From contig JANXZM010000061.1 in the NCBI GenBank assembly GCA_025355505.1, forward strand, positions 1-64,000: DNA of 64,000 nucleotides, written 5' to 3'. The position numbers were made by a program, and so were the translations under genes. The DNA comes from Acidobacteriaceae bacterium (lineage in GTDB: Bacteria > Acidobacteriota > Terriglobia > Terriglobales > Acidobacteriaceae). The notes under the pieces were generated by a model, which made no database searches, was not told where the DNA came from, and saw only the letters and a program-made list of their open reading frames with translations. Below are positions 9,551 to 52,263 of this stretch, piece by piece. How positions within the stretch are numbered: position 1 is the first letter of the stretch; every line of letters begins with the position of its first letter.

Positions 9551-11713
9551 ATGCCGAGATACAAGTATGCGCTTCGGTCAACGATTGCAGTGGCTGTGAT
9601 GGTCTTGGCCGTAGCCGCATTGGCTCAGTCGGATACGGCGGTAAATCCCCTCTCCATCGAAGCACTCATTGAAATTAAACATCCATCGAATCCAGTTTGG
9701 TCGCCCGATGGGGAGCGTGTGGCATTCCTCTGGGATCGGGCAGACATCGTTAACCTATACGTTGCATCTTCCGACGGCCGGGACAACCCGTTGGCCTTGA
9801 CCTCATTTCCTGACGGCAAAGTAGCAGACATATTCTGGAGTCGCAACAGCCGAACCGTATATTTTTCGCGCGGCGAAGATTTGTGGCAGGTAGACGTTGC
9901 CGGAGGTCAGGCGCGTCCTGCGTGGAGCACCTCCAGCCCCGAAGAGGAATTTTCTCCTTCGCCCGACGGGACTAAATTGGCGTTTGTCCGTGCTCGCAAA
10001 TTCGGGGAAGCGCAGCACGGTGGCGATCTAATCGTGCGCTCGCTGAACGACGGAAGCGAGTCGGTGATCGTACACGATAGCGAGAGTATCCTTAGCCCGA
10101 TCTGGTCACCTGACGGAAAACGGATTGCGTACCTCGGTGGCAGCAAGGTCATTCGCCATGATGAGACGCCTTCGTATTCTGGAGAAAAGATAGCCTTCGC
10201 TGTTTTTGAGTATGCGGCTGGACAGCTCTATGTAGTGCAGGCCGGTGGAGGCAAGCCGATTGCGATTGACACGGCTGGGGAATACAACGGGATCGCGTGG
10301 CTCGATTCCGCGCGCCTGACCTACGATCGTCAGTCCAACGGCTTCAAGACAAGGACAATCTATGTTGCGGATGCCAATGGCGACAAGCCTAAAGCCATCC
10401 ATGAAGACAAAGAAGAAAAGTTCTGGAGCCTTCCCGACTGGGAAGCCGAATCCAGACCCAAGCCCTCGCCCGATGGCAAGTGGATCGCCTTTCTGACCGA
10501 CCGGGACGGATGGGATCACCTATATGTTGTCGCATCCCATGGTGGGCCGGCCATTCAAATTACAAAAGGGCACTTCGAAGTCTGGCGTCCACGCTGGTCT
10601 CACGACAGCTCGCGGATTGTATTCGACGCCAACGAGCCCGATCATCCGGGCAATCGACGCCTCGGAGTCGCAACGTTGGGGACTGACTTTAACAACACAA
10701 AGATTGACTACGTGACTAGTGACATGGGAACGAACATCGACGCTTGGTGGTCGCCCGACGACAAGCGTCTCGCTTATCAGCATACCGACACGCACAATTC
10801 GGCTGACATTTTTGTGACCGCTGCAACCGCGGGTAGCAAGCCAGTACGGCTCTCGGATTCCATGCCGCCAAGCATGGATCGTTCCGTCTTTGTGGAGCCG
10901 CAACTTATCCACTATCCCGGCCCCGATGGCCAGTCCGTTCCGGCGTGGCTCTTTGTGCCTAAAAACCTCGATCGCAGCAAGAAACACGCAGCCATCGTTT
11001 GGATTCACGGCGACGGCATCAATCAGAATTACAACGGCTGGCACGTGCAGCGAAACTACGCGGTCTACTACAGCTATCACCAATACCTCCTGCAGCAGGG
11101 CTACGTCGTGATTGCCCCAGACTACCGCGGCAGCACTGGTTACGGGCGCGACTGGCGCAACGGGGTTCACATGGACGTCGGCGGCAACGATGCCAAAGAT
11201 GCATGGATGGCAGCCAACTATCTTAAGACTCTTCCTTATGTTGACTCCGAACGCATGGGGGTCTGGGGCTTAAGCTATGGCGGGTTCTTTACGCTGATCG
11301 CAATGACCGATCAGCCTACGCTGTTCCGTGCTGGGGTGGACGTCGCGGGTGTGGCCGACTATGTCATGTACTATCACGATCCTTACAACAACGACTGGAC
11401 CGAGGGCCGAATCGGCACACCCCAACAAAATCCCGAAATCTATGCTAACGCGTCGCCCTTGTCGCATATCGGCCAATTGGCACGGCCGTTGCTGGTATTG
11501 CACGGGACCTCCGACGTGAATGTACCGTTCCTGCAATCTGTGTGGTTGATGGATGAAGCTCTAAAGAAGAACAGAGGCGACTTGGTTCAATTCATGATTT
11601 ACCCCGGCGAATTCCACTACTTCAGTCGAGAGCACGTCCTGCGGGATGCGTGGAACCGGGTCGACCGCTTTTTCAGTCTCCAATTGCGCGAAGCCGACCG
11701 ATCGAAGCAATAA
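9551..11713 (+). CDS. secreted S9-family prolyl oligopeptidase-like peptidase
   Basis: A 720-residue protein with signal peptide (ALRSTIAVAVMVLAVAALAQS), an N-terminal beta-propeller of PD40/WD40-like blades (NPVWSPDGERVAFLWDR, SPIWSPDGKRIAYLGG) and a C-terminal alpha/beta hydrolase. The nucleophile is in WGLSYGGFF, the acid is likely in HGTSDVNVPF, and the His is in PGEFHYFSREH. This is the dipeptidyl-peptidase IV / acylaminoacyl-peptidase type, cleaving short peptides outside the cytoplasm. It precedes a TonB receptor, DUF1028 and amidohydrolase, all exported, which suggests peptide scavenging. Length is normal. Confidence 0.93.
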   Translation: MPRYKYALRSTIAVAVMVLAVAALAQSDTAVNPLSIEALIEIKHPSNPVWSPDGERVAFLWDRADIVNLYVASSDGRDNPLALTSFPDGKVADIFWSRNSRTVYFSRGEDLWQVDVAGGQARPAWSTSSPEEEFSPSPDGTKLAFVRARKFGEAQHGGDLIVRSLNDGSESVIVHDSESILSPIWSPDGKRIAYLGGSKVIRHDETPSYSGEKIAFAVFEYAAGQLYVVQAGGGKPIAIDTAGEYNGIAWLDSARLTYDRQSNGFKTRTIYVADANGDKPKAIHEDKEEKFWSLPDWEAESRPKPSPDGKWIAFLTDRDGWDHLYVVASHGGPAIQITKGHFEVWRPRWSHDSSRIVFDANEPDHPGNRRLGVATLGTDFNNTKIDYVTSDMGTNIDAWWSPDDKRLAYQHTDTHNSADIFVTAATAGSKPVRLSDSMPPSMDRSVFVEPQLIHYPGPDGQSVPAWLFVPKNLDRSKKHAAIVWIHGDGINQNYNGWHVQRNYAVYYSYHQYLLQQGYVVIAPDYRGSTGYGRDWRNGVHMDVGGNDAKDAWMAANYLKTLPYVDSERMGVWGLSYGGFFTLIAMTDQPTLFRAGVDVAGVADYVMYYHDPYNNDWTEGRIGTPQQNPEIYANASPLSHIGQLARPLLVLHGTSDVNVPFLQSVWLMDEALKKNRGDLVQFMIYPGEFHYFSREHVLRDAWNRVDRFFSLQLREADRSKQ

Positions 11714-29706: not shown

Positions 29707-29739
29707 AAAAATTAACCCTTAAGTCCGCGGTTAATTTTT
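29707..29739. promoter_or_regulatory. TTAACC/GGTTAA inverted repeat before the sigma-54 activator
   Basis: AAAAATTAACC and GGTTAATTTTT are perfect 11-bp arms with an 11-bp spacer, about 50 bp upstream of the activator start. The same GGTTAA half-site recurs downstream at 31196-31232, suggesting one regulator binds both, possibly the activator itself. Confidence 0.55.
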
Positions 29740-29791
29740 GCTCGCTTCCGCCCCCGCGGTAAGCGGCGTTTGGGGGCCTACTCGCGTGTCA

Positions 29792-31189
29792 ATGAACGTT
29801 CCATTCAGCAGCGCGGCCGCGCGCATTGCCGTGATGACCACCGACGAGTCGGTCATACTGGCTGCTCAGGAAAACCTCGCCTCGGATTTTCATATCACTT
29901 TGCTGGACGCGGGCGATGGCGTGCTGGCGCTGCAGAATGAAGTTCCGCTGGAAGCCGTCATTCTGGACCTGGACACACCGGAGGGGCCGGCCGAGCCGAT
30001 GCTGGAATTGGTCAGCCATCTCCGCGCGAAGGATGAGCACCTGGTGCTGATTGGCCTGATCCAGTCGCTGACCAAAGTATCGCGGCGCAAGTTTCTGGCG
30101 GCGGGAATCGCTCACTGTTTTGTGGCCCCGGTCGAATTTGCCGAAGTGCAGCGGTTCCTGCAGAGCGCGCTCGATCAGCGCCGACTCGATATCGAAGGGC
30201 AAAAAGTCCGTGAAGATGCGCGGAGCCGGTATTGCTTCGGTGAGCTGATCGGCGGCAGTGAAGCCATGCGTCGGGTGTATGACGCGGTCAGCCGCGTAGC
30301 GCCGGGTAACACCACGATCATGATCCTGGGTGAGAGCGGCACCGGGAAAGAACTGGTGGCGCGCGCCATTGTAGCCAACAGCCAGCGGAGCGAGCAGGCT
30401 TTTATCAGCGTAAACTGCGCGGCGCTGCCGGAAGCGCTGATTGAATCGGAATTGTTTGGGCACGAAAAGGGGGCGTTCACGGGAGCGCACCAATCGCGCG
30501 CGGGGCACATCGAGATGGCCCATGGAGGCACGCTGTTTCTCGACGAGATCGGCGCGGTGGGGCTGGCGCTGCAGAGCAAGCTACTGCGGGTTCTGGAACA
30601 ACACACGGTCCAGCGCCTTGGGGGGAAGGTGCCGAGGAAGATCGACTTTCGCCTGATCACGGCGACCAATGAAGATCTTGAGCAGGCGATGCATGCGGGA
30701 AGATTCCGCGAAGATCTTTATTACCGGATCAACGTGATTCCGATTGTTCTGCCTCTGTTGCGCGAGCGGCAAGGCGACATCGCGCTGCTGGTGGATCACT
30801 TTCTGCGTTTTTACTGCGCCGCGAACAGTCTGCCGGTCAAAACCATCGACACCGACGCGCTGGAGGTGCTGGAGGACTATCACTGGCCGGGCAACGTGCG
30901 CGAACTGGAAAACCTGATGCAGCGGCTGGTGCTGATGGTCCCGGGTTCGAACATCGCCGTAAAACATCTGCCGCAGGGAATCTTGTACACAAGCTCAGTG
31001 AAACAGGAGTCTCTACTGATCCCGGAAGAGGGGCTTTCCTTTGACGAGGAGATGGCGCGGATCGAAGTCGCGTACCTGCAGGCGGCGCTGCGGCGGACCG
31101 ATGGAAAAAAGACGGCGGCAGCGGCGCTGCTGCGGATGGACGGGCAAAAGATGAAGTATCTCTGCCGCAAGTACGGGCTTCAGAGTTGA
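29792..31189 (+). CDS. sigma-54-dependent Fis-family response regulator-like activator
   Basis: About 465 residues: a receiver-like domain (about 10-120, with [11 protein letters not shown] as the region of the phosphorylated Asp), an AAA+ sigma-54 interaction domain with Walker A GESGTGKE, the sigma-54 contact loop GAFTGA, Walker [10 protein letters not shown] and arginine finger [12 protein letters not shown], then a HTH_8/Fis helix near the end ([25 protein letters not shown]). Such proteins bind upstream sites and remodel RNA polymerase with sigma-54. The receiver lacks a clear acidic pair, so it may be a degenerate sensor. A GTG at 29786 is an alternative start. GGTTAA palindromes follow directly. 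Confidence 0.9.
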
Positions 31190-31195
31190 GCAATT

Positions 31196-31232
31196 GGTTA
31201 AAAACTAACCTCCCGGTGGTTAATTATTAACC
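31196..31232. promoter_or_regulatory. two GGTTAA palindromes (candidate enhancer sites)
   Basis: GGTTAAAAACTAACC and GGTTAATTATTAACC (a perfect 7-1-7 palindrome) are 22 bp apart, two helix turns, and lie about 115-150 bp upstream of the -24/-12 promoter. That is the usual distance for enhancer sites of sigma-54 activators. Motif sharing with 29707-29739 supports a common regulator. Confidence 0.6.
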
Positions 31233-31346
31233 GTGCGGGAGGACGCGGGCGGAAAAACCGCTCCCCCACGAAGAACAGTTCTTGTATCTTGCTGAAATGA
31301 TTGAGGCTCACAGGCAGACGCCCTGCGTTCTGGGCGCTGTGGGGTT

Positions 31347-31362
31347 TGGCATGGCTCTTGCA
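31347..31362 (+). promoter_or_regulatory. sigma-54 (-24/-12) promoter
   Basis: TGGCATGGCTCTTGCA fits TGGCACG-N4-TTGCA with one mismatch in the -24 block. Transcription would start near 31373, giving an 80-nt leader before the ASKVA-repeat gene. The activator gene and its likely enhancer sites lie immediately upstream. A perfect AAGAACAGTTCTT palindrome also lies between them at 31271. Confidence 0.8.
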
Positions 31363-31453
31363 ATATGGAATGGCAGACAAGGCGGGGCAAACAAGACTCC
31401 CTGCGGTCAAAGCATCCAGATCGAAAACTTCCGCAAAGGAAATGGAGAACCAA

Positions 31454-31699
31454 ATGAGCATCGAAAAGAAATCGCTGATCAACAACATGACGGCCACCAA
31501 GAAGGCCCTCTTCGCCACCTCGCCTGCCAGCCCGATCGTCTCCAACAAGATCGCTGAGAAGAGCTCGGTGTCTGCGAGCAAAGTCGCTGCCAGTAAAGTA
31601 GCCGCCAGCAAGGTAGCCGCGAGCAAAGTAGCCGCCAGCAAAGTAGCTGCCAGCAAAGTCGCTGCCAGCAAAGTCGCCGCCAGCAAGATGCTTGGCTAG
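31454..31699 (+). CDS. small lysine-rich protein with seven ASKVA repeats
   Basis: An 81-residue cysteine-free protein. A 40-residue leader-like part (MSIEKKSLINNMTATKKALF, then ATSPASPIVSNKIAEKSSVS) is followed by seven tandem ASKVA units and an ASKMLG end. The repeat codons vary (GTC/GTA, AGC/AGT, AAA/AAG), so the peptide repeat is held by selection rather than recent slippage. ATG 31454 has GGAG 7 nt upstream; ATG 31442 is an alternative. The ORF track's 31301 start would lie inside the sigma-54 promoter. It may be a secreted peptide processed by the exporter genes facing it, or a histone-like repeat protein such as AlgP. Confidence 0.72.
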   Translation: MSIEKKSLINNMTATKKALFATSPASPIVSNKIAEKSSVSASKVAASKVAASKVAASKVAASKVAASKVAASKVAASKMLG

Positions 31700-31723
31700 A
31701 ATTTCAGGGTATTGTACTAGCTT

Positions 31724-31761
31724 AGGGGCCGTGCGGTGGGGGACTGCGCGGCCTTTAGGTT
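31724..31761 (+). terminator. probable terminator between ASKVA gene and exporter operon
   Basis: GGCCGTGCGG and CTGCGCGGCC pair imperfectly around TGGGGGA and are followed by TTTAGGTTTTTT. It sits between convergent genes and would end the ASKVA transcript. Confidence 0.55.
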
Positions 31762-31763
31762 TT

Positions 31764-33923
31764 TTACCAGAGTTTCCGTCTGACGAAATCGCTGACCGTT
31801 CGCCAAACCAAGCCGGCGATGCTGCGGCGCACGGTGTAGATCTTGGCCGTGCCGGTCATTCCATACATCAGTTTGCTTTCAGAGTTCGGTTCCTGCACCG
31901 TGACGGCGTAGTAGCGTGGTGCAGCCAGCCCCTTATATTCGGATTTCGGTTCCAGCCCCGGCTCGATCTCCGAGGACGCCAAAGCGATCTCCCCGACCAC
32001 ACCTGACAGTGACCGGAAAGAGGAATCCACGCGAAGGCTGACTGCCTGCCCGGGCCTAACCTCGCGCATTTCAGATTCCCGAACGTACAGGCGTGCCGAC
32101 AGCGAAGAAAGATCCGCGATCTCAACCGCGGTGGCGCCGGCATTTAGATGCGAGCCGAGCAGATCAGCCGTGCGCGGGCTTACTACGCTGCCGGCAATTG
32201 GACTGCGCAGTTGCAACTGCTTAACCTTCCGGGCCAGCAATTGAGATTTCTCGCGAGTTTTCTGAAATTCCTGCTCCACCCCGACCGCATCCGTGTAGTG
32301 CATCTGGGCCTCGGTGTTGCGGGAGCGGGCCAGTTGCAGATCAGCCTCCGTCAGCGCCTGTTGCGACTCCAGATCAAGATTGCGCAGGCGCAGGAGCGGG
32401 CTATCGCGATCCACCGTCTGTCCCTCATGCACGAGCACTTCGACCACGGTTCCGGGGACTTCGGCGCGAACCACGGCGCGCTGCACTGGTTCGAGAATGA
32501 ATCGTGCGTGCACGGTGTCCCGAAGATACGGAATAACGAGCAGCGCGACAAGAACGATGGTAAGAATTGCGATGCGCGCGGGTGTCATCGAACGTACCAG
32601 CGAGGATCTGAGCAGCGGGTCCCGCTTCGCGGTGTATACGGTTTGCATAAATTTTCCAAATTTTAGAAGTCTGGATTTGAAGATCAGAAACGCCACCAAA
32701 ATCGTAGGAATGAACGCCCACTCCGGGCTGTAGTGGCGAAAGATGTTCCCCACAAACCTCGCCACTGCGTACAGAAGCAGGTAGCTGTACATGCCTGAGA
32801 GGATCGCGTAGGGCACGAAAAACCAGCGCAGTCGCGGACGGACATAGGCGACTTCGACGGGAAGCCGGAGGATGTGTTTCTGCACCCAGCCCGACACCAG
32901 CGCGGTTGAACGCTCCTTGATTTCGTCAAGGCCGAGGGTTTCCGACAATATGTAATAGCCGTCGAGCTTGATCAACGGGTTGAGATTCATGAGTACGACA
33001 GCGACCCCGGTGATCAAGATCACTTTGTAGGCGAGATCGTGGATGGAGCCGCCCGGCGGCGTCCCCCACCAGACCGCGGTGGCAGCGGCACAGATGATTA
33101 ACTCCGTCCAGATGCCTGCCAGCATGGTGACCACGCGCTGGAAGCGATTGGCATAGACCCACGCCTCGGTCACGTCGACGAAGAACGCGGGCGTCAGGTA
33201 GATCAGGTGAAAGCCCGTGCTGTGGACGCCGCCTCCGTAGTGCTTGCAGGTGACTGCGTGCGCCGACTCATGAAAGAACGCCATGATCAGGAACAGAAAC
33301 CAGAACTCGGCGAGATCGGCGGCCGACTTATCGGTGAATGTATAGTATTCAAGCGTGTCGGCGCCGATCTGCGACCACTGGGTGACAAAGATGTAAACCA
33401 TGAACGCAAAGATGACGAGCGTCAGGGCCGTAAACCACGGGGTGTAGATAAACTGCAGGCTGCGGTGCGCGGTGTCAACCAACTTGTCCGCATCCCATTG
33501 CGCGATCGGGATGCGCGCCATGTCCCCGGCCTTGGCCTTTTTCTGTTTCTTACGGCGGTCGCGCAGTTTCTGCATGAGCGCGATGTTTTTTTCGTGCGGA
33601 GACTGATACCAGAAATCAGCGTCCTGCATCATCTCCGCGAAATTCCGGACCTGTTCGACGCCCAACTGGATTGCAGTCTCCGCCAGGAATAACTCCGCAA
33701 TTTCCGCATAAGGCCGCTGCCCATCAAATAGATGCGCGAGCTTCCATTGTTCCGGGGTCAAGCGGAAAATGTTCGTCGATCCCGGCACATGCGCCAGAAA
33801 CATCGGCGCGCCTTCCTCGATGTGCTGGCGGCCCACCAGTCGCGCATCGATCTTGAAGACGCGCTTGCTCCGTGTGGGCGTGGTTATCTCGGGAAGAACA
33901 TCCAGCGCTTCTGCCAGGTTCAT
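31764..33923 (-). CDS. PqqD-like / M50 site-2 protease / HlyD fusion protein
   Basis: A 719-residue fusion. Residues about 20-110 look like a PqqD/RRE-type peptide-binding domain (TNIFRLTPEQWKLAHLFDGQRPYAEIAELF). Next is a membrane M50 metalloprotease with HExxH in FFHESAHAV and the second metal motif in LNPLIKLDGYY. The last 220 residues are a HlyD-like adaptor (VQRAVVRAEVPGTVVEVLVHEGQTV and IAGSVVSPRTADLLG). This combines substrate recognition, membrane proteolysis and export. Its ATG overlaps the stop of the upstream adaptor gene as ATGA. I infer a peptide maturation-export role for the facing ASKVA gene. Confidence 0.82.
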   Translation of the reverse strand: MNLAEALDVLPEITTPTRSKRVFKIDARLVGRQHIEEGAPMFLAHVPGSTNIFRLTPEQWKLAHLFDGQRPYAEIAELFLAETAIQLGVEQVRNFAEMMQDADFWYQSPHEKNIALMQKLRDRRKKQKKAKAGDMARIPIAQWDADKLVDTAHRSLQFIYTPWFTALTLVIFAFMVYIFVTQWSQIGADTLEYYTFTDKSAADLAEFWFLFLIMAFFHESAHAVTCKHYGGGVHSTGFHLIYLTPAFFVDVTEAWVYANRFQRVVTMLAGIWTELIICAAATAVWWGTPPGGSIHDLAYKVILITGVAVVLMNLNPLIKLDGYYILSETLGLDEIKERSTALVSGWVQKHILRLPVEVAYVRPRLRWFFVPYAILSGMYSYLLLYAVARFVGNIFRHYSPEWAFIPTILVAFLIFKSRLLKFGKFMQTVYTAKRDPLLRSSLVRSMTPARIAILTIVLVALLVIPYLRDTVHARFILEPVQRAVVRAEVPGTVVEVLVHEGQTVDRDSPLLRLRNLDLESQQALTEADLQLARSRNTEAQMHYTDAVGVEQEFQKTREKSQLLARKVKQLQLRSPIAGSVVSPRTADLLGSHLNAGATAVEIADLSSLSARLYVRESEMREVRPGQAVSLRVDSSFRSLSGVVGEIALASSEIEPGLEPKSEYKGLAAPRYYAVTVQEPNSESKLMYGMTGTAKIYTVRRSIAGLVWRTVSDFVRRKLW

Positions 33924-34831
33924 GGCAGGTTGGGAACACGGATGCTCGTGGTCATGCCCGGTCGTAGATCTTTGGTGGGTCCGACGAGTTGGGCGAGAAC
34001 TTCGATGGTGCCGCTGGAAGGATCGATGACCGGACTGATTTGCATTACCTTGGCGCTGAACCTGGCGCCTCCACTGTCGGCCGAGGTGACTTCGAAGGTT
34101 TGCCCGCGCTGAATCTTACCGGCGAAGCGCTCGGGGAGAGTAAACTTCACGCGCAGCGGCGAAGTTTCTGTGATCCAGAACATGCGATCGCCGCGGTTGA
34201 CCTGTTGTCCGGCGCGAACGTAGCGGCGCGCTACAATCCCTGAAAACGGGGCGCGAATGCGAGTTTTCTCCAGCTCAAGTTCAAGCGAGCGCTCGGTCTG
34301 TTGCGAGTTGACAAGCATCTCCTGCACGCGCTTGACGTCCCACTGGTCCGATTCGGCTTTGAAGCGGGCGTGATCGAACTGCTCCTGGGTGATGAGCTGG
34401 GCCTCCCACATTTTTCGCGAACGTTCGGCGTCGGCTTCTAGCACCTTGGCTTCCGCTTCCCAGTTCTTAAGGTCGGCTGCGGTGCTGCGGGTGCGGGCGC
34501 GCGCCGCATTGAGGTCAGCGGTCGCCTGACGATCATCCAGCTGGGCCAAAAGCCGGCCTTCACGAACCATGAGCCCAGGTTCAGCGTGAACTTCGGCGAC
34601 AACTCCGTCGCGCTGTGCAGCAACGTCCACCTGGTGCTCGACGATGAGCGGGCCGGAGGCGACAAAGAAAGGCTCGCGATCGGACGGAAGAGGAGGAGGA
34701 GCGGCGGGCGCGTTCGGGACGGGCCGAGCCGCAGCGGTAACTTCGGCAGGCCTCGAGTCGCTGCAGCCAAACTGCGAGAGGACGAGTGTGAGTAACAGCA
34801 AAATCTTCGCCGCGGTTTTCAAGTTCATCAT
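33920..34831 (-). CDS. HlyD/RND-type periplasmic adaptor lipoprotein
   Basis: About 303 residues starting MMNLKTAAKI. A lipobox (LLLTLVLSQFGCSDS) is followed by a Pro-rich linker, a biotin/lipoyl hairpin (VDVAAQRDGVVAEVHAEPGLMV), a long coiled-coil (ARTRSTAADLKNWEAEAKVLEADAE, continuing to LELELEKTRIRAPF) and beta-barrel and membrane-proximal domains (VKFTLPERFAGKIQ, LRPGMTTSIRV). Such adaptors bridge an inner-membrane pump to an outer-membrane channel. The start at 34831 lies after the upstream gene's stop. It sits between a GAF-HlyD and an M50-HlyD gene, so the system has three adaptors, and no ABC or RND pump is next to it. Confidence 0.86.
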   Translation of the reverse strand: MMNLKTAAKILLLLTLVLSQFGCSDSRPAEVTAAARPVPNAPAAPPPLPSDREPFFVASGPLIVEHQVDVAAQRDGVVAEVHAEPGLMVREGRLLAQLDDRQATADLNAARARTRSTAADLKNWEAEAKVLEADAERSRKMWEAQLITQEQFDHARFKAESDQWDVKRVQEMLVNSQQTERSLELELEKTRIRAPFSGIVARRYVRAGQQVNRGDRMFWITETSPLRVKFTLPERFAGKIQRGQTFEVTSADSGGARFSAKVMQISPVIDPSSGTIEVLAQLVGPTKDLRPGMTTSIRVPNLP

Positions 34832-34872
34832 CGCTTGTTCCTGACTTCGCCCCTCACTCACCGATCCAATCG

Positions 34873-37308
34873 TCACCATCCAAACCATGACCACAGCTTG
34901 GAGTAGAACCACATAAACGGGCTCCGGAAAAGCACGTAGCCAATGGGACGCCATCCGACAGAAATTTTTCCGCGTCCCTGCATACCGGGACGCAGGCGAC
35001 CGTCGGGATTCGGGACGTCGACGCGAGCATAGAAAAACCGCGCATCGCCGTCGGCCTGGCTCTTGGGGCTGACGACGGCGACATTGCCGCGAAAGGTCTG
35101 GGTCGGGAATCCCTCCACCTTAATTGCAGCGGCCGCACCGGAATGAAGCAAAGAAATCTCGGACTCATCGATGGCAACGTCAACCCGGGCTTGGGAACTG
35201 TCCGCAACTTCAGCCAACGTGTCTCCAGCGGCGAGGCGGCGGCCGGTCAAGTCTTCGACGTGAGGGGTGGTAACCCAGCCATCAAGAAGCGCATGCAGGT
35301 GCGTTCTCTCCAAACGCTCGCGGGCGCGGTCAACCTCGGATGCCCAATACCTGGCTTGCACGCCCTGGATGCCGGCCTGGGCGCCATCGTTGGCGGCGAG
35401 CGCGCGGTTCACCTCCATGGCTGCGGTCTGGTACTTGGCTTGGGCCCCGGCGAGAGCTGCGCGGTAATCCCAATCTTCCAGATCAGCCAACACTTGGCCG
35501 CGCTGCACGTGTTGGCCTTCACGAACGTAGACTTGGCGAACCACGCCGTCGATTTCCGGTTGCACCTGGGCCGAGCGGGCGGATGCTACGGTGGAAGTTC
35601 CATCCACGCGCATCGGGATCGGAAAAACCGCAAGAAACAAAGCGAACGCTGCCACGGCTGCCACAAACAGCGCCCGCCGGCGTTTTTCGAGGGCCAGAAA
35701 TTTCGTTTTCCTTTGCAGAATCGGCCCGAGCAGCCCGATGAACGGGACTTCTTTGTAGAGCGAAGCATTGCGCACGGCGACGGTCGCCTGCCCGGCAAGA
35801 ACCCGAATCATCTCCAGGTGGGCTTCGCTGAGAAAGTCGGGGTCACTGCTTTCGAATAACAGGATTCCGAGCCGGCCTTCATCATCGGCGAGCGGGAGTG
35901 CATAGAAGGCGCGCATCCCGGTCTGGGCAAAATATTTGCGGAACGGCGCTTTCATCGCTTCTTCGGGAGCGTCGATCCGAGCTTCGACCTCGTCTTCGCG
36001 CTGGACAATAAAGATGGCGTCGCTGCCGCCCGACACGGCGGGGATCACGTCTTCGAGTTGCGCGATCTCGCGCGCTCCGGGATTGATTTGTTCCATGCCT
36101 GAGACGGCCTTCAAGCGCAACTTGCCACGCTCGTCGAGCGCAACCGAAGCCCGCTCATACGGAATCACGGCACTGGGCGTGTTGACCACAGCCTGTAGAA
36201 CGCGGTCAAGGTTGAGAGTGGAAGTGATCTCGGCGCTCACATGCACCAGGGTTTGCAGAATTTCCACCTTGCGTTCGGCCTGGAGAAGCCCGGCATTGTT
36301 CAGGGCAATAGCGGCCGTTTCGGAAATGGCGTTCAGCAGAAACAGCTCGTCTTCGTCGAACGGACTTCCGTCCATTTTGTTAATCGCTTCGATGATCCCC
36401 ACTTGTTTTTCATGGGCAACGAGCGGGCAAACAATGGCGGAAAACGGTCCACCCTGGACCGCGGATGGATTGCGGATGGCAAGACGCTCGTCTTTGTCAT
36501 CAGCTTTGTCGCCAGTGATGAGCAGGGGTTCGCCTGAATCGGAGACCTCTGCAATGTAGCCTTCGCCGGTTCGCTGCGACGAGCCGACCGATGCGGTGGG
36601 ATCGTTTCCCGACTGTTGCATGAGCAGCAGTTCGTGTTCATCTTTGACAAACCACAGATTTACAGCCTGGACGCCCAGCACCTCGCGAATTTTAGAGGTG
36701 ATCAGGGGTAGAAGCTCGTCCATTTCGAGCGTGGAACTGAACACTTTCTCAAGATCGTAGAGTTGCGTAAGCCGCGAAATCGATTCGAGCAGGGAGTTGC
36801 GCTCGTCTTCGTACAGCATCGCGCTGACCAGTCCCGGTCCCGCATGCTCGACTAGATCCACCAGGACCTGAAGGTCCGATGAGTCGATCGTATCTTCGAA
36901 AGAGGCCACTTCCAGCGCACCGATCAGAACGCCATTCACCTTGACAGGAACGCAGGCCAGGGATACCAGGGTTCGCCGGGCATGGAGATGGGCGTAATCC
37001 TCGCGCGTCAGTTCGTTGCCGGAAAACAGGAGCGGCTGCTGCTCTTGCGCCAGAGTTCCCAGCGTCCCGGAGTCGGCGGGCACGGTCGGATCATCCAGTC
37101 GAACCTCCCCGGCAGTTGCTTTGGCGGTCCATGTTGCGGCAACGGCTGGTGGGTCGCCCGCGTCCAGCACATACACGATGGCGGCGCCTCCGGAGACCAA
37201 TTCGGCAGCCTGTTGAGCCAGGAGCGCGGCCCGCGGAGCACACTCGCGCTCTCTAAGCATTGCGCTCAGTAACCGGGCTGACACTTCGACGTGTCCGGAG
37301 GGTTGCAT
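34873..37308 (-). CDS. triple-GAF sensor fused to HlyD adaptor
   Basis: About 811 residues. Three GAF-like domains are present (ALLAQQAAELVSGGAAIVYVLD; ITSKIREVLGVQAVNLWFV; VVNTPSAVIPYERASVALD), then a membrane helix at about 560 (ALFVAAVAAFALFLAVFPIPM), and a HlyD adaptor in the periplasm (VQPEIDGVVRQVYVREGQHV and LDGWVTTPHVEDLTGRRLAAGD). The GAF half would sense a small molecule in the cytoplasm and the HlyD half would reach out. It is the first gene of the operon with 33920 and 31764. The ATG at 37308 is the likely start; a GTG at 37317 is the track start. This fusion is uncommon. Confidence 0.83.
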   Translation of the reverse strand: MQPSGHVEVSARLLSAMLRERECAPRAALLAQQAAELVSGGAAIVYVLDAGDPPAVAATWTAKATAGEVRLDDPTVPADSGTLGTLAQEQQPLLFSGNELTREDYAHLHARRTLVSLACVPVKVNGVLIGALEVASFEDTIDSSDLQVLVDLVEHAGPGLVSAMLYEDERNSLLESISRLTQLYDLEKVFSSTLEMDELLPLITSKIREVLGVQAVNLWFVKDEHELLLMQQSGNDPTASVGSSQRTGEGYIAEVSDSGEPLLITGDKADDKDERLAIRNPSAVQGGPFSAIVCPLVAHEKQVGIIEAINKMDGSPFDEDELFLLNAISETAAIALNNAGLLQAERKVEILQTLVHVSAEITSTLNLDRVLQAVVNTPSAVIPYERASVALDERGKLRLKAVSGMEQINPGAREIAQLEDVIPAVSGGSDAIFIVQREDEVEARIDAPEEAMKAPFRKYFAQTGMRAFYALPLADDEGRLGILLFESSDPDFLSEAHLEMIRVLAGQATVAVRNASLYKEVPFIGLLGPILQRKTKFLALEKRRRALFVAAVAAFALFLAVFPIPMRVDGTSTVASARSAQVQPEIDGVVRQVYVREGQHVQRGQVLADLEDWDYRAALAGAQAKYQTAAMEVNRALAANDGAQAGIQGVQARYWASEVDRARERLERTHLHALLDGWVTTPHVEDLTGRRLAAGDTLAEVADSSQARVDVAIDESEISLLHSGAAAAIKVEGFPTQTFRGNVAVVSPKSQADGDARFFYARVDVPNPDGRLRPGMQGRGKISVGWRPIGYVLFRSPFMWFYSKLWSWFGW

Positions 37309-37367
37309 GCTTGACACTGCTTAAGCGCGCAGAATATTACGAACAATCAGGGGAGAGGTTTGACCCT

Positions 37368-45363: not shown

Positions 45364-46887
45364 CTACGGTACGGCCTGAACTAGCGTCGGCCTAACCTGT
45401 TCGCGCTGAATTTCGGAGGCGTCCCACGCGCCGCCCAGAGCCTTCACCAGGAACACAGAAGTAACCAGTTGCTGGCCAAGCAACTGCGTTGACAGGCGTT
45501 GGTTGTTCAGCAACGCGGATTGCGCGGTAATCACATCAAGGTAGGTTGTCACACCGCCGACATAACGGCTGTTGGCGATGTCGAGCGCGCGGCGCGAGTC
45601 GGCGACCGCTGCCGCCTGAGTTTTCGCAGCCTGGTTAAGCAGGGCGAGACCGGAGAGTCCATCCTCCACCTGCTGAAATGCCACCAGCACAGATTCGCGA
45701 TAATTGGCGACCGATTCGTCATAAGCAGCGCGGGTGCCCGCCAGGTTGGCGCGATTGCGGTCGCCATTAAATATCGGTTGCAGCAGATCGCCGCCGAGCG
45801 ACCAGAAAGCGCTGGGAGCGTTGATCAGCGTGGCGATGTCGCGGCTCTCCCATCCGCCGCTCCCACCCAGCGTGATATGAGGATAAAACGCGGCCATCGC
45901 TAAACCGACTTGCGCATTTTCGAATGCCATCTGGCGCTCACTGGCGGCAACGTCCGGTCTGCGCTCCAGAATCCCGGATGGAACTCCGGTGGGAATTGCT
46001 GGAGGAGCGGCGTCGAACGGCGCCTCAGCCACGGTGAAAGCCGAGGCGGACTTCCCCGTCAGCACGGCGATGGCATGTTCGTATTGCGCCCGCTGCCGCA
46101 GTACGAGCGAAAGCTGCGTCGCAGTCGAATCCAACAACGCGGTCTGCTGTGCCACTTCCAGCCCATTCGCGACCCCGCCGTCGTGACGCCGGTTGACCAG
46201 GTCCAATCCCTTTTGCTGGATTTCGACCGACTGCCGCACCACTCCCGCTTCACGATCAAGTTCGCGCAGGTTGAAGTAGTCGGCGGCGAGTTCGGCAGTC
46301 AACACCAGGCGCACATTTTCCAGGTCGGCCGCACTCACCTGGAGCGAAGCGTTGGCCGCTTCAAGATTCCGGCGTACGCGTCCAAATAAATCAAGCTCGT
46401 AGCTGACGGAAAACGGGACGGTGAAAACGTTCTGGGTAACGGGCGCAGTCGCAACCTTGCTGCCCGAAACCGGGCGATTGCCGGAGAGGCGCTGGCGCTG
46501 CCCGCCGGGATCCACGCTGAGCGCGGGGAAGTACGCCGATGACGCGATCCGCGCCTGCGACCGGGCCTGCGAGAGACGATCCTGCGCCGCTACCAGCGAC
46601 TGGTTTGCCTGCAGCAGCTCTTGCTCCAGCCGGTCCAGTTCCGCGTCGTGAAATATCTGCCACCACGCGCCCTTCGGAATTGCATCCTTCGGAGCAGCCG
46701 TCTGCCACGGCCCTTCCCCTTTCCACGCGTCGGGAACCTGCGCAGTGGGGCGCCTATATCCCGGCCCGACCGTGCAACCTACGGTACAGACCGCAAGCAA
46801 TGCGACGATAAGCAATCCACTTTTCAAGTCACTCTTGCCAACAGGCTTATTGTCGAGTCGTAGTTGCTTTATAAGGGACGGAATCAT
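45364..46887 (-). CDS. RND outer membrane channel lipoprotein (NodT/OprM-like)
   Basis: About 507 residues starting MIPSLIKQL with a lipobox (LLIVALLAVCTVGCTVGPGYRRP). It has two OEP repeats with long helices (LLQANQSLVAAQDRLSQARSQARIA; VADSRRALDIANSRYVGGVTTYLDVITAQ). These form a trimeric TolC-like tunnel for drug efflux. It follows the membrane fusion gene and permease on the same strand. The track's start at 47016 overlaps the fusion protein gene, so ATG 46887 is chosen. Confidence 0.92.
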   Translation of the reverse strand: MIPSLIKQLRLDNKPVGKSDLKSGLLIVALLAVCTVGCTVGPGYRRPTAQVPDAWKGEGPWQTAAPKDAIPKGAWWQIFHDAELDRLEQELLQANQSLVAAQDRLSQARSQARIASSAYFPALSVDPGGQRQRLSGNRPVSGSKVATAPVTQNVFTVPFSVSYELDLFGRVRRNLEAANASLQVSAADLENVRLVLTAELAADYFNLRELDREAGVVRQSVEIQQKGLDLVNRRHDGGVANGLEVAQQTALLDSTATQLSLVLRQRAQYEHAIAVLTGKSASAFTVAEAPFDAAPPAIPTGVPSGILERRPDVAASERQMAFENAQVGLAMAAFYPHITLGGSGGWESRDIATLINAPSAFWSLGGDLLQPIFNGDRNRANLAGTRAAYDESVANYRESVLVAFQQVEDGLSGLALLNQAAKTQAAAVADSRRALDIANSRYVGGVTTYLDVITAQSALLNNQRLSTQLLGQQLVTSVFLVKALGGAWDASEIQREQVRPTLVQAVP

Positions 46888-47002
46888 GAACTCGCCTTTC
46901 TCCGTGACTCCGTGACTCCGTGGTGAGGTTCTGGTTTGTGAACGGCCCGGAGATCGCAGCTCGAAGTTGAATTTAGGACACGATCGACTGGCGGCAATCG
47001 CT

Positions 47003-48241
47003 TCACGAGCGTCCATCTCCCGCGTTCGGCTTAGCCACGCGCACTTTCTGCCCTTCCTCGAGTGAGTCGGCCGGGTTGATGATGATCTGATCGTTTACGT
47101 CGAGGCCGCCAAGAATTTCGAGCGTAGCGCCGAAGTCGCGCCCAATCGTGATCGGGCGCAAATGCACCTTGCTGTCCGTGTCGACAACCGCTACCCGCGG
47201 CCCCTCGGCGCGGAACAACATGGCGTTCACCGGGATCGTAATCCTCGAAATGGAAGTCCCAGTCGCAAAATGCACTTGGCCGAAAGAACCAGGCAACAGC
47301 TTGCCGCCTTTGTTTGGAACATCCACTTCCGTGAGCAGCGTACGCGTTGCGGGATCGATGGCATCGGCGGTGCGTGCCACCGTTCCCATAAATTTCTGGC
47401 CGGGAAATTCCTGGAGCGTAACGTTCGCCTTCATCCCAGCTTTCATGGACGGCGCATACGCCTGCGGAACACTGGCGTAAACACGAAGCGGATTGACGCG
47501 AGAGATAACGAACAGCTCCTTGCCAGCCGCTCCCGCCCCGGAATTGATGAGCGCGCCCGGATCGACATTGCGCCGGGTAAGCACTCCGGAAAAAGGTGCG
47601 TATACGTTCTTGAACGACTCGAGTTGCTCGAGGCGGCGAACATTCGCGTCCCCCGCCGCCAAGTTGGCTTGCGCCTGCTGGTAGCCGCTCGCCTGCTGGT
47701 CGGCTTCCTGCTGCGAAACCGAGTCGGACTTGCGCAGATTCGCCCAACGGTCGGCGGAGATCTTCGCCAGCTCCAGCGCCGCCTTGATCTGCTCGCGGCT
47801 GGCTCGCGCCTGTAAAAGCTCCTGGTCAATTTCCGGGGTATCGATCGCCGCCAGTAGTTCCCCCTTCTGAATCTTGCTTCCAATATCCTTGTACCAGCGT
47901 AAGAGGTAGCCGTTGGTTCGGGCAAAAATCGGTGACTCTTCAAAAGCCTGCAAATTTGCCGGCAACACAAGTTCGTCGTTCCCGGGCTCGGATTGAGGTT
48001 GCACCACCGCAACGGTCGGAACCGAGACGGCTTCGGTTTCTTTCGCCAGCGCGTTAGCTTCGGTGTTTCTGTTCAGAAATGTAACTGCACCGGCGGTGAT
48101 CAGGACCAGCAGCGCGGCGCCAACCAGAATCTTTCCCCGGCCTGCCGGAGCCGGACCCGGATCGAAGGGCTCACTGATGTCTGGGCGCACTGGCTGCGTC
48201 TGGTTCTGCTGCGTCGTTACAGGCGGCGGTTGTACTGGCAT
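47003..48241 (-). CDS. RND periplasmic membrane fusion protein (AcrA/MexA-like)
   Basis: About 412 residues. An N-terminal membrane anchor (GKILVGAALLVLITAGAVTFLNRN) is followed by a lipoyl domain, an alpha-hairpin (LLQARASREQIKAALELAKISADRW to QAQANLAAGDANVRRLEQL), a beta-barrel (NVTLQEFPGQKFMGTVARTADAIDP) and a membrane-proximal domain. It links the inner membrane permease to the outer membrane channel. ATG 48241 has GGAGG 7 nt upstream. It lies 39 bp downstream of the permease gene. Confidence 0.93.
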   Translation of the reverse strand: MPVQPPPVTTQQNQTQPVRPDISEPFDPGPAPAGRGKILVGAALLVLITAGAVTFLNRNTEANALAKETEAVSVPTVAVVQPQSEPGNDELVLPANLQAFEESPIFARTNGYLLRWYKDIGSKIQKGELLAAIDTPEIDQELLQARASREQIKAALELAKISADRWANLRKSDSVSQQEADQQASGYQQAQANLAAGDANVRRLEQLESFKNVYAPFSGVLTRRNVDPGALINSGAGAAGKELFVISRVNPLRVYASVPQAYAPSMKAGMKANVTLQEFPGQKFMGTVARTADAIDPATRTLLTEVDVPNKGGKLLPGSFGQVHFATGTSISRITIPVNAMLFRAEGPRVAVVDTDSKVHLRPITIGRDFGATLEILGGLDVNDQIIINPADSLEEGQKVRVAKPNAGDGRS

Positions 48242-48279
48242 GATGGCGACCTCCAACAAATTCTCTATTCTTGCTCTTT

Positions 48280-51200
48280 TTACATTTGCTCCTGCAACAG
48301 CCGCTCTTGGCGGCGGCCATGAATAATCGTAAATACACTGGGCACGAAAAATAAGGTGGCTACGGTTGCGAAGAGCAGGCCGCCAATCACGGCTCGGCCT
48401 AACGGCGCGTTCTGCTCACCGCCCTCCCCGAAGCCTAACGCCATCGGCAGCATGCCGACAATCATGGCCAGGGCCGTCATGAGTACCGGCCGCATGCGCG
48501 TGTAGCCGGCTTCAAGCGCCGCTTGCCGCGCCGGCACTCCAGCATCCATGCGGTCGCGAGCAAACGAAACCAGCAGAATCGAATTCGCGGTCGCCACCCC
48601 CATGCACATGACTGCGCCCGTCAGCGACGGAACATTGAGCGTGGTGCGCGTTATCAGCAGGAACCAGCAGATTCCCGCCAGCGCTCCCGGCAACGCTGTA
48701 ATGATAATGAAGGGATCGAGCCACGACTGAAAGTTGACCACGATCAGCAAATAGACGAGCACGATCGCCCCCAGAAGGCCTATGCCCAGGCCGAAGAACG
48801 AGGACTGCATGGTCTCAATCTGCCCGCGAACCACGATGCGCGTGCCGCGTGGCAAATGGTCCTGGAATGGTTTGAGCGCCTTCATCACGTCCGACGCAAC
48901 TCCACCCAGATCGCGCCCCTGCGTGCTGGCATACACATCGATAACCGGCTGCACGTTGTAATGGTTCACCACTGCCGGACGCGCCGCCGGCGTGAGCTGA
49001 ACCAGATTCCCCAGCACTTGCGGGGCCTGCGCCGTTACGCTGTTTACCGGTGTGTTCATCATGTCCTGCACCGACGTCATCCGATACTGTGGCGTTTGAA
49101 TGGCGATCGGATACGTCACACCGTTCTTCGGATTAAGCCAGAAATTCGGGGCCGTCTGAAAGCTTCCACTCAAGCTGATCAACACACTTTGCGCAACATC
49201 GCGGGCATTGAGTCCGACCTGATTGATGCGCGTGCGGTCCATATCCAGGTGGAGAGTGGGCAGACTCATTATCTGCTGCACGTGAACGTCCGCCGTGCCG
49301 GGAATCTGGCGCACCTGATTTGCGATCTTCTGCGCCAGGTCGTAGTTCGCGCGCATATCGGCGCCCATGATCTGGATGTCGACCGGCGCGGGTAATCCAA
49401 AATTGAGAATTTGCGACACGATATCGGCGGGCTGGAAAAAGAATTCCACGCCCGGAAAACGCGATGGCAGTTCGCGGCGCAACCTGCGTACATACTGCGC
49501 CGTCGGATGATGGTGCTCCGGATTCAGCGAAATCAGAATCTCCGCATCACTCGTCCCAATCACTCCCGAACTGCTGTAGGAAAGATTCAATCCCGAGTAC
49601 GGGACGCCGATATTGTCCAGCACAGTCTGCAACTCTTCCTTCGGAATCTCGCTGCGCAGCACGCGCTCCACTTCGTCGCACAGCCGCGCGGTCTCTTCCA
49701 CCCGCAGGCCGGACCGGGCACGGACGTGCAAGCGGATCAAGCCCGCATCCACTTGCGGGAAAAAGTCCTGCCCCAGAAAAAACACCAGCCCCAGCGACAA
49801 GAAACAGAAAGCCACAAAACCGATGGCGAATAATTTGCGGCGTTCGAGAGTGGTTTCCAAAAGTTGCTGATAGCCGCTCCGGAATCTTTCAAACCAGCGC
49901 TCGAATCTCCGCTGGAATTTTGCGAGGACGTTTGTCGGCTCGGCGGCACGGTGCTCGTGCCCGCGCATGATAAACATCACCATCGTCGGAATCAGGGTTC
50001 GCGACAGCAGGTAGGACGCCAGCATGGCAAAGCACACCGCTTCCGCCATGGGAACAAAAAGAAACTTCGCGACTCCGGACAGAAAAAACATCGGCACAAA
50101 CACAATGCAGATCGACAACGTCGATACAAGCGCAGGCACCGCAATTTCCCGCGCGCCATCGAGGATGGCCTGCTTCATGTCCTTGCCCATGGCCAGATAG
50201 CGCTCGATGTTTTCGATCGTCACCGTCGCGTCATCCACCAAAATGCCCACCGCAAGCGCCAGCCCTCCCAGAGTCATGATGTTGATGGTCTGGCCAAGTG
50301 CGCTCAGCAAAATCACGGAGACGAAAATAGACAAGGGGATCGAGACCGCGATGATCACCGTCGGACGCCAATCGCCCAGAAAAAGCAGAATCATGGCGGC
50401 GGTAAGACAGGCGGCAATCATCCCTTCCCGCAAAACTCCCTGAACCGACGCGCGCACAAAAAGCGACTGATCGAACAACGCCTTGATGCTGAGTTCAGGC
50501 GGCAGCGTCTGTGCCGCCAGCGGCACCATCGCCTTCACTGCATTAACGACGGTCAGCGTAGAAGATCCGCCCAGCTTGAAGATCGACATCAGTACGCCGC
50601 GCACGCCGTCCTGTCGCACGATGTTGGTTTGCGGCGCGAATCCGTCACGCACGTGCGCCACGTCGCGCAGGTAAAGTGTGGACGAGTGCGAGGTTTTTAC
50701 CGGCAGATCGTTCAGTTCGGCGATGGTCTGCGGAGTGCCGTTCATCTCCACCGTGTACTCGGTCGGCCCGATCTTGGCCGTACCTGCCGGCAGAATCAAA
50801 TTCTGCGCTGCCACCGCGTTGACAATGTCCGCGGGCGCCAGACCATAGGCCTGCAGCTTCGCGGAATCGAGGTCCACCTGCACCTGCCGAATCTTGCCTC
50901 CATAAGGATACGGCGTGCTCGCGCCCTGAACCGTGGTCAACTGTGTGCGCAGAAAATTGTTCCCCAGATCGAATAACTGCTGTTCCGGCAGCGTTTTGCT
51001 GCTCAACCCCAGTTGCACAACTGCGGTCGACGACGCCGTGTAAGTGATGACCAGCGGCGGATTCGCGCCCGGGGGCAGTCCGCGCAGCACCGTTTGGGAC
51101 ATCGCCGTCACCTGGGTCACGGCCATGGAAATATTGACGGAAGGCCGGAAGAAAATCTTGATCACGGCGATTCCGCTGAGCGACTGTGACTCCTGATGTT

Positions 51201-51435
51201 CGATGTCGTTGACCGTAACCGTGAATCCGCGCTCGGAGTTGCTCACGATCCGGTCCGCCATCTCACTCGGCGACAGACCCGTATAGCTCCATATCACGCT
51301 GACTACGGGTATGTTGATTTCGGGGAAAATATCGACCGGCGTGCGCAGGATGGTGATGGGCGTAAGAATAATGATGAGCAGCGCCATCACCACGAACGTG
51401 TAAGGGCGGCGAAGCGCTAATGCGACGATCCACAT
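48280..51435 (-). CDS. RND multidrug efflux permease (HAE-1 type)
   Basis: A 1051-residue permease with the twelve-helix layout and two periplasmic loops of AcrB-like pumps. The proton-relay Asp pair is seen in GLALAVGILVDDATVTIENI. The start is MWIVALALRRPYTFVVMALLIIIL. It exports hydrophobic compounds using proton-motive force. It is the first gene of a permease-adaptor-channel operon, with a TetR gene divergent. There is no ribosome binding site before the ATG; instead two 13-bp direct repeats lie there, so expression may be set by an operator or a leaderless message. Confidence 0.95.
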   Translation of the reverse strand: MWIVALALRRPYTFVVMALLIIILTPITILRTPVDIFPEINIPVVSVIWSYTGLSPSEMADRIVSNSERGFTVTVNDIEHQESQSLSGIAVIKIFFRPSVNISMAVTQVTAMSQTVLRGLPPGANPPLVITYTASSTAVVQLGLSSKTLPEQQLFDLGNNFLRTQLTTVQGASTPYPYGGKIRQVQVDLDSAKLQAYGLAPADIVNAVAAQNLILPAGTAKIGPTEYTVEMNGTPQTIAELNDLPVKTSHSSTLYLRDVAHVRDGFAPQTNIVRQDGVRGVLMSIFKLGGSSTLTVVNAVKAMVPLAAQTLPPELSIKALFDQSLFVRASVQGVLREGMIAACLTAAMILLFLGDWRPTVIIAVSIPLSIFVSVILLSALGQTINIMTLGGLALAVGILVDDATVTIENIERYLAMGKDMKQAILDGAREIAVPALVSTLSICIVFVPMFFLSGVAKFLFVPMAEAVCFAMLASYLLSRTLIPTMVMFIMRGHEHRAAEPTNVLAKFQRRFERWFERFRSGYQQLLETTLERRKLFAIGFVAFCFLSLGLVFFLGQDFFPQVDAGLIRLHVRARSGLRVEETARLCDEVERVLRSEIPKEELQTVLDNIGVPYSGLNLSYSSSGVIGTSDAEILISLNPEHHHPTAQYVRRLRRELPSRFPGVEFFFQPADIVSQILNFGLPAPVDIQIMGADMRANYDLAQKIANQVRQIPGTADVHVQQIMSLPTLHLDMDRTRINQVGLNARDVAQSVLISLSGSFQTAPNFWLNPKNGVTYPIAIQTPQYRMTSVQDMMNTPVNSVTAQAPQVLGNLVQLTPAARPAVVNHYNVQPVIDVYASTQGRDLGGVASDVMKALKPFQDHLPRGTRIVVRGQIETMQSSFFGLGIGLLGAIVLVYLLIVVNFQSWLDPFIIITALPGALAGICWFLLITRTTLNVPSLTGAVMCMGVATANSILLVSFARDRMDAGVPARQAALEAGYTRMRPVLMTALAMIVGMLPMALGFGEGGEQNAPLGRAVIGGLLFATVATLFFVPSVFTIIHGRRQERLLQEQM

Positions 51436-51462
51436 AAGACTGACGAAACAAGACTGACGAAA
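51436..51462. promoter_or_regulatory. tandem AAGACTGACGAAA repeats upstream of the RND operon
   Basis: The 13-bp sequence occurs at 51436-51448 and 51450-51462, a 14-bp period, directly against the permease start and in the TetR/RND divergent spacer. It may be a regulator site, but direct rather than inverted repeats are atypical for TetR. Confidence 0.45.
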
Positions 51463-51594
51463 ACCGGTATTGCCGGAAATCGATACTAGCGGAAACCGTC
51501 ACTGCCGAAGCTGCGGCCCCACGCTCGCCTACGGAATTACAATTACAGATTCAAAACAGTACGTTTCGAATTTAAATTATATTAGACTTCAGCC

Positions 51595-52263
51595 ATGGTT
51601 CAAAATCATACGCGGCGCGCCAATGCTGGGAATGCCGATCCCCGTAACGGAATCGAGGGGGCTGCCGGGAAGCGCCCGCCCGGGCGGCCACGCAGTGAGG
51701 CGTCGCGTCAGTCGATCCTGCGCAGCACTCTGAAACTGCTCAAGCAGCATGGTGGATTCGCGGAACTGAGCATTGAGGCCATCGCCGCCGACGCCAATGT
51801 TGGCAAGACAACTGTCTACCGCTGGTGGCCGACCAAGGCCGCCTTGGTCGCCGACGCTTTCTCCACTAGTGCCGACCAAGAACTCCGCTTTCCGGATACA
51901 GGCTCTGTGCAACGCGACATGAGTCTGCAGATGAGGCGGCTGATTCGCATCTTCCGGTCCAATCGCGGCAAGCTGGTGGCGGCTCTGCTCGCCGGAGGGC
52001 AATCGGATCCGAAGCTGATCCAGGCTTTTCGTGAAAGATTCTTGTGGCCCAGGCGTAAACAGGCCTATCAAACTCTGCAACGCGGCATCGACCGCGGTGA
52101 ACTCCCCGCTGGCAGCGACCTCGACCTCGTTCTCGACTCGCTCTACGGTCCGATCTACATGCGCTTTCTGATCCGGCACGACAAGCTCGACGAAAGCTTC
52201 GCCGACGATATTTGCGCGCTCATTCTGAATGGCCTGAAATGCCGGCCACCACGCGGAAATTAG
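51595..52263 (+). CDS. TetR-family repressor
   Basis: A 222-residue TetR protein with a helix-turn-helix (RQSILRSTLKLLKQHGGFAELSIEAIAADANVGKTTVYRWWPTK) and a helical ligand-binding half with a TetR_C-like end. It lies divergently 159 bp from the RND permease gene, the usual place for its repressor. The preceding 18 residues are a Pro/Gly-rich tail (KRPPGRPR). Confidence 0.92.
   Translation: MVQNHTRRANAGNADPRNGIEGAAGKRPPGRPRSEASRQSILRSTLKLLKQHGGFAELSIEAIAADANVGKTTVYRWWPTKAALVADAFSTSADQELRFPDTGSVQRDMSLQMRRLIRIFRSNRGKLVAALLAGGQSDPKLIQAFRERFLWPRRKQAYQTLQRGIDRGELPAGSDLDLVLDSLYGPIYMRFLIRHDKLDESFADDICALILNGLKCRPPRGN

Follow-up and report, generated by a model that had tools for sequence, protein, structure and literature searches.

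Peptide Gene and Repeat Array

The window analyzed here is a 64,000-nucleotide stretch of an Acidobacteriaceae genome (contig JANXZM010000061.1). It contains a short gene (31454-31699, forward strand) for an 81-residue tandem-repeat peptide, flanked by a sigma54 activator gene and, on the opposite strand, by an operon of HlyD-domain proteins. The reading frame, defined by its sequence and by homologues, runs from an ATG to a TAG and is preceded by a GGAG ribosome-binding site (31444-31447, forward). Its product reads MSIEKKSLINNMTATKKALFATSPASPIVSNKIAEKSSVS(ASKVA)x7 ASKMLG. A conserved leader (MSIEKKSLINNMTATKKALFAT, residues 1-22; 31454-31519, forward), delimited by alignment, column counts and hidden Markov model (HMM) search, is followed by an unconserved linker of approximately 18 residues, seven exact ASKVA units (residues 41-75; 31574-31678, forward) and a degenerate eighth unit, ASKML. 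Tandem Repeats Finder places the array at 31577-31686 with a period of 15 and 88% matches. The original prediction, made from the letters of the window, of a frame with seven exact ASKVA repeats is thus borne out by both the frame and the repeat analysis. That prediction also took the first 40 residues for a leader; a leader is present, but it spans about 22 residues, and the rest of this front part is linker. An AlphaFold 2 (AF2) model of the peptide is disordered (mean predicted local distance difference test, pLDDT, 58), with no strands and a weak helix in the leader only.

Two alternative frames were rejected. A longer form starting at TTG (132 residues) is incompatible with the leader family, which begins at ATG 31454. 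An antisense frame (31198-31686, reverse strand; 162 residues) with LLAATL repeats is a reverse reading of the array. Promoter, ribosome-binding site and conserved leader all belong to the sense frame, and we judge the openness of the antisense frame to be a by-product of codon usage.

Constant Leader, Changing Units: The Peptide Family

Homologues were gathered from the same position in other genomes, from the 79 loci of a scan of the whole collection for the M50-HlyD partner described below, and from further genomes. Four matches from the first protein search (L002, L006, L008, L009) cover the repeat part only and were left out, and weak leader matches in genomes G078, G043, and G011 (L137-L139) look like chance. 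Subtracting three chance matches from 57 hits gives 54 distinct peptides, the window peptide included. These share a leader of about 22 residues with a consensus close to M-x-I-Q-K-K-S-L-I-S-x5-K-K-A-I-x-A, followed by a variable linker and, in most, by tandem repeats of a unit that varies from species to species. Cultured carriers include Edaphobacter lichenicola and Granulicella (L045, L047, L050, L068, L073, L084). Homologues with a conserved leader and changing repeat number, proposed as a check on the window gene, therefore exist, and the unit changes with them: besides ASKVA, examples are SKGAGL, LSGGKG (20 copies), GKL, ANTR, KPAI, NQPLLK, KRLDSA, RVTPHA, GHSPKVV, LAKSTN, AAKAPAKL, ADAGSMA (17 copies), and GGLQGG. 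The consensus period ranges from 3 to 15 residues, and periodicity is significantly above shuffles in 49 of 52 complete peptides, so that repetition is usual in the family, not absolute.

Composition is of low complexity (A, K, S, G, L, V, R), with no Trp or Tyr and almost no Phe or Cys. Net charge is usually +9 to +20, and the consensus unit has at least one basic residue in 48 of 52 arrays; the units of L132, L134, L135, and L136 contain neither Lys nor Arg, and L134 has a net charge of -14. None of the Pfam and NCBIfam models describes the peptides tested. Contigs assigned to a single metagenome-assembled genome (bin.60) carry two distinct copies of the system, one with the unit GHSPKVV (L076) and one with RVQS (L088).

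The seven ASKVA units of the window (L001) have seven different codon spellings and no amino-acid change (synonymous difference pS 0.60, non-synonymous difference pN 0.00). Across the family, unit-versus-unit comparison within arrays gives a pooled pS of 0.57 and pN of 0.08 (pN/pS 0.14), and in 41 of 42 arrays pN is lower than pS; the pN values are inflated if anything, since a change from one serine codon family to the other is counted as non-synonymous. Units within arrays are held by purifying selection, in agreement with the earlier proposal of selection on the peptide instead of recent slippage. Between species the picture is one of replacement. Twelve pairs of loci with an M50 identity of at least 0.7 have a mean leader identity of 0.86 and share, on average, 0.28 of their array 3-mers; the window and its nearest relative are 78% identical in M50 and 82% in leader, and have zero array 3-mers in common. 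The comparison shows a near-frozen leader ahead of a body that selection keeps uniform in each species and that is replaced between species.

A Conserved Sigma54 Promoter

Upstream of the gene lies a predicted sigma54 promoter with a perfect -24/-12 element (TTGGCATGGCTCTTGCA, 31346-31362, forward), with GG at 31348-31349 and GC at 31360-31361, identified by its sequence and by its position in homologues. Exact matches to TTGGCAYN5TTGCW number only 7 in the 4.16-Mb genome; the second one in the window (11477-11493) falls inside a long coding frame and was discarded. When 400 nt upstream of each homologue were scored, the best -24/-12 site lay 59-108 nt from the ATG in 52 of 53 genes, and in 45 of these genes no shuffle out of 20 scored as high (counts taken from the table of scores). 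The promoter named in the original prediction is thus supported by its similar placement across the family. The adjoining gene (29738-31189, forward) encodes a sigma54 activator with an AAA+ domain containing GAFTGA (Pfam Sigma54_activat, E 2e-69), a Fis-type helix-turn-helix (HTH_8) and a degenerate receiver-like N-terminus; its homologue cluster was found in 45 loci. The features expected of a sigma54-dependent promoter, namely -24 GG and -12 GC elements, an activator gene next door and rpoN in the same genome, are therefore all present. At the other end, a 19-bp hairpin between the convergent genes (31719-31761, no strand assigned; RNA fold -35.3 kcal/mol, z -3.06) is a possible shared terminator; a consensus terminator scan returned nothing.

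The Partner Protein and Its Module

Tail-to-tail with the peptide gene, wherever a contig covers both, is the gene of a 719-residue protein (31764-33923, reverse) in which a domain resembling a RiPP recognition element (RRE; RiPP, ribosomally synthesized and post-translationally modified peptide), an M50 site-2 protease and an HlyD adaptor are fused (NCBIfam daptide_HExxH, NF041824, E 5e-42; Pfam HlyD_3/HlyD_D23). The Pfam Peptidase_M50 model matches all ten aligned family members at E<=1 (best 4.7e-7), the window protein scoring 5.8e-5, below the gathering score. The zinc-binding motifs of M50 proteases, HExxH and NPxxxxDG (here NPLxKLDG), are invariant in 10 of 10 aligned sequences. In the window protein the first is HESAH (residues 218-222; 33258-33272, reverse), with H218, E219, and H222 invariant, and the second, which provides the third zinc ligand, is NPLIKLDG (residues 315-322; 32958-32981, reverse), with N315, P316, L317, and K319-G322 invariant.

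The N-terminal region (residues 21-110; 33594-33863, reverse) is a putative leader-binding domain. An AF2 model of residues 1-160, built with 49 sequences, gives block means of pLDDT 81-91 in this core, and the six best PDB fold matches are leader-bound RREs of lasso-peptide systems: five TbiB1 chains (5v1u, 5v1v) and 6jx3. The TbiB1 matches have a probability of 1.00 and TM scores by target of 0.60-0.65 (best E 2.8e-3). The domain thus models as an RRE.

Two further adaptor genes follow. One (33920-34954, reverse) encodes an HlyD/RND-type periplasmic adaptor (TIGR01730, E 1e-46) that is a probable lipoprotein if started at an internal Met near residue 43 of the open frame, as a lipobox read from the sequence suggests; the other (34873-37317, reverse) encodes 814 residues in which three GAF stretches are fused to an HlyD adaptor (Pfam GAF, HlyD_D23). 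Three proteins with HlyD adaptor domains are therefore encoded in one operon facing the peptide gene. The order sigma54 activator, peptide, RRE-M50-HlyD, HlyD, GAF-HlyD is a recurring five-gene module of Acidobacteriia. Among 120 relative genomes, the leader HMM (E<1e-3) and the M50-HlyD HMM (E<1e-250) pick out the identical 19, with zero discordance.

The only other frequent neighbor is a gene for a STAS-domain anti-sigma antagonist, present at 22 loci (for example L067:13449-13787 and L060:8969-9307), with an RsbW-like gene in 5; these suggest a partner-switching input to the system. Elsewhere in the window, 8 kb from the module, the region 45364-52263 reads as an outer-membrane factor (OEP), an adaptor-like frame, an RND-like pump and a TetR-like regulator. 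The OEP/RND genes at 45364-51435 are probably a separate efflux system with its own regulator.

Remote Relatives

Loci with remote RRE-M50-HlyD proteins carry other leaders. LQR-type repeats occur in L091, L093, L101, and L143. In the same place beside the module, L097:5742-6269 and L099:9932-10504 encode peptides of 176 and 191 residues with a different leader (VVIKLTNEQQEAIRRATGQEI) and ARKAPL repeats. The remote RRE-M50-HlyD genes of Verrucomicrobia, Bacteroidetes, Planctomycetota, Eisenbacteria, and other Acidobacteria have one to five small neighbors whose leader is EELEERIAP-like. Peptides of this leader type in L105, L109, L110, L111, L114, L117, L118, L119, and L147 are approximately 45-76 residues long, mostly with Gly/Asn/Pro-rich low-complexity cores.

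Proposed Function and Rival Readings

The best reading of the locus is a sigma54-induced, leader-guided, secreted tandem-repeat peptide. We consider it likely that the peptide is the substrate of an export system guided by the leader; its partner, a combined protease and adaptor, probably recognizes the leader, trims it and helps to send the repeat peptide out. The activator would switch expression from the -24/-12 promoter. As fold, motifs and homology suggest, the leader would then dock on the N-terminal RRE-like domain of the 719-residue membrane protein and be cut off by the M50 site-2 protease center, and the fused HlyD domain, together with the operon's other two HlyD adaptors and a TolC-type channel from another locus, would pass the leaderless repeat outward. 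OEP-domain matches in the genome number 14, in TolC-type channels and usually two per protein. Given the RRE fold, the invariant M50 motifs and the daptide precedent discussed below, docking, cleavage, and passage form the most economical mechanism.

Several results weigh against this scheme. The module neighborhoods share no conserved gene for an ABC, RND, or MFS pump or for an outer-membrane channel, so that type I secretion in its usual form (ABC ATPase, adaptor, and outer-membrane channel) is not encoded there. The RRE assignment comes from fold similarity (best E 2.8e-3; TM by target about 0.6), Pfam PqqD gives no match in the partner protein, and the NF041824 match scores 144 bits against a cut-off of 300. 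Among the 52 complete peptides, 3 (L066, L075, and L083) do not exceed shuffles significantly in periodicity at the threshold applied.

As to the product itself, the unit is exact within an array, changes between close species and has no fixed length; this suggests, if weakly, that the unit is what is recognized outside the cell, rather than a part of one common fold. Outside, many copies of the unit might act as a species-specific signal or antagonist, and it is toward such a product that we lean. The main rival sees in the exported repeat a structural or surface bulk polymer (matrix, envelope coat, or charge shield), for which composition and flexibility would matter, not unit identity. Low complexity, predicted disorder and the neutral or acidic arrays of L132 and L134-L136 fit such a polymer, which we regard as possible though not the better explanation: the units of a bulk polymer should be free to drift apart, and these remain near-exact despite strong synonymous divergence (pS 0.57).

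The basic residues and positive net charge of most members could also indicate a cationic, bacteriocin-like antimicrobial exported by the module, and M50 proteases have been implicated in the maturation of the epipeptide antimicrobial (PMC10885120). The four homologues whose unit lacks basic residues, the acidic L134 and the finding that no immunity-like gene is conserved beside the peptide gene make this unlikely. It is less probable again that the peptide is a regulator, occupying the RRE-like domain to control the protease or adaptor complex, and not its cargo. RRE binding would be enough for that role, and it sits easily with a module encoding no energized pump, but it leaves unexplained the fast unit turnover, the uniform arrays and the several different short peptides per protease gene at remote loci.

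A cytoplasmic histone-like DNA-binding protein of the AlgP/H1 type, one of the original suggestions, is very improbable: Lys-rich repeats and a weak match to NCBIfam hist_H1_lk_Burk (E 7.8e-5; 23 bits against a cut-off of 80, apparently compositional) are outweighed by the non-basic arrays and by the strict co-occurrence of the gene with an exporter-like RRE-M50-HlyD module. The beta-helix also suggested there, or a pentapeptide-repeat solenoid, is not supported, with periods of 3 to 15 residues, no predicted solenoid and a strandless, disordered AF2 model.

If leader-guided export is correct, the system may be a compact peptide secretion route in Gram-negative soil bacteria, switched by sigma54, in which one protein would recognize the peptide (RRE), cut it (M50), and take it across the envelope (HlyD). 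We propose, tentatively and with more doubt than confidence, that it is a new bacterial peptide system in which species-specific multi-copy units (signals or kin-specific antagonists), built as a constant leader and a tandem array, are processed and sent out by one RRE-site-2-protease-HlyD protein with no ATPase of its own, as one branch of a multi-phylum class. A near-frozen leader joined to a body that is uniform within each species and replaced between species is an unusual and testable pairing. The pairing also offers a handle for mining this peptide class in Acidobacteria and, where the leader is of the LEERIAP type, in Planctomycetota, Bacteroidetes, and Verrucomicrobia. In the library searched, literature queries on M50, HlyD, RRE, RiPP, and Acidobacteria returned no description of these peptides or of the wider class, a broader one gave general reviews only, and the motif LEERIAP retrieved unrelated text, mostly on fungal taxonomy.

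Comparison with Known Systems

As in RiPP systems, a precursor with a leader and a variable core lies beside processing genes; no modifying enzyme beyond leader removal is among the genes conserved in the module neighborhoods. The nearest named relative of the partner protein is the daptide protease MpaP, a site-2 protease fused to an RRE and described as removing the leader (PMC10036551). NF041824 aligns to residues 47-412 of the window protein, with a score below cut-off, and both systems place an RRE, or here an RRE-like domain, N-terminal to an M50 protease, next to the gene of a short precursor with a conserved leader. The EELEERIAP-type leader of the remote loci is similar to ELExMEAP, the leader motif of daptides (PMC10036551). 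Unlike daptide systems, the window module has an HlyD domain behind the protease, a tandem-repeat core, a different leader and sigma54 control, and contains no decarboxylase, oxidoreductase, aminotransferase, or methyltransferase. A second parallel is the epipeptide YydF/EpeX, a ribosomal peptide thought to be cleaved and exported by the M50 protease YydH/EpeP (PMC10885120). The YydH/LiaK model gives 46 bits against a cut-off of 225, and the window module differs in having neither a radical SAM epimerase nor an ABC transporter, and in possessing Gram-negative adaptors and a repeat core.

Three HlyD-domain proteins in one operon recall type I secretion and tripartite efflux (HlyD, RND_mfp). In contrast to those machines, the module encodes no ABC, RND, or MFS pump, and one of its adaptors is fused to the RRE-like and protease domains and another to GAF. 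The Lys/Ala-rich low complexity of the peptides is shared with AlgP and H1-like proteins, from which the family is set apart by its leader, its module context and its non-basic members. Yeast alpha-factor and the fungal KEX2-processed repeat proteins are likewise multi-copy precursors: their units stand in tandem, are nearly identical and vary in sequence from species to species. The window system shows no sign of unit excision and combines its repeats with a bacterial leader and an exporter-like module.
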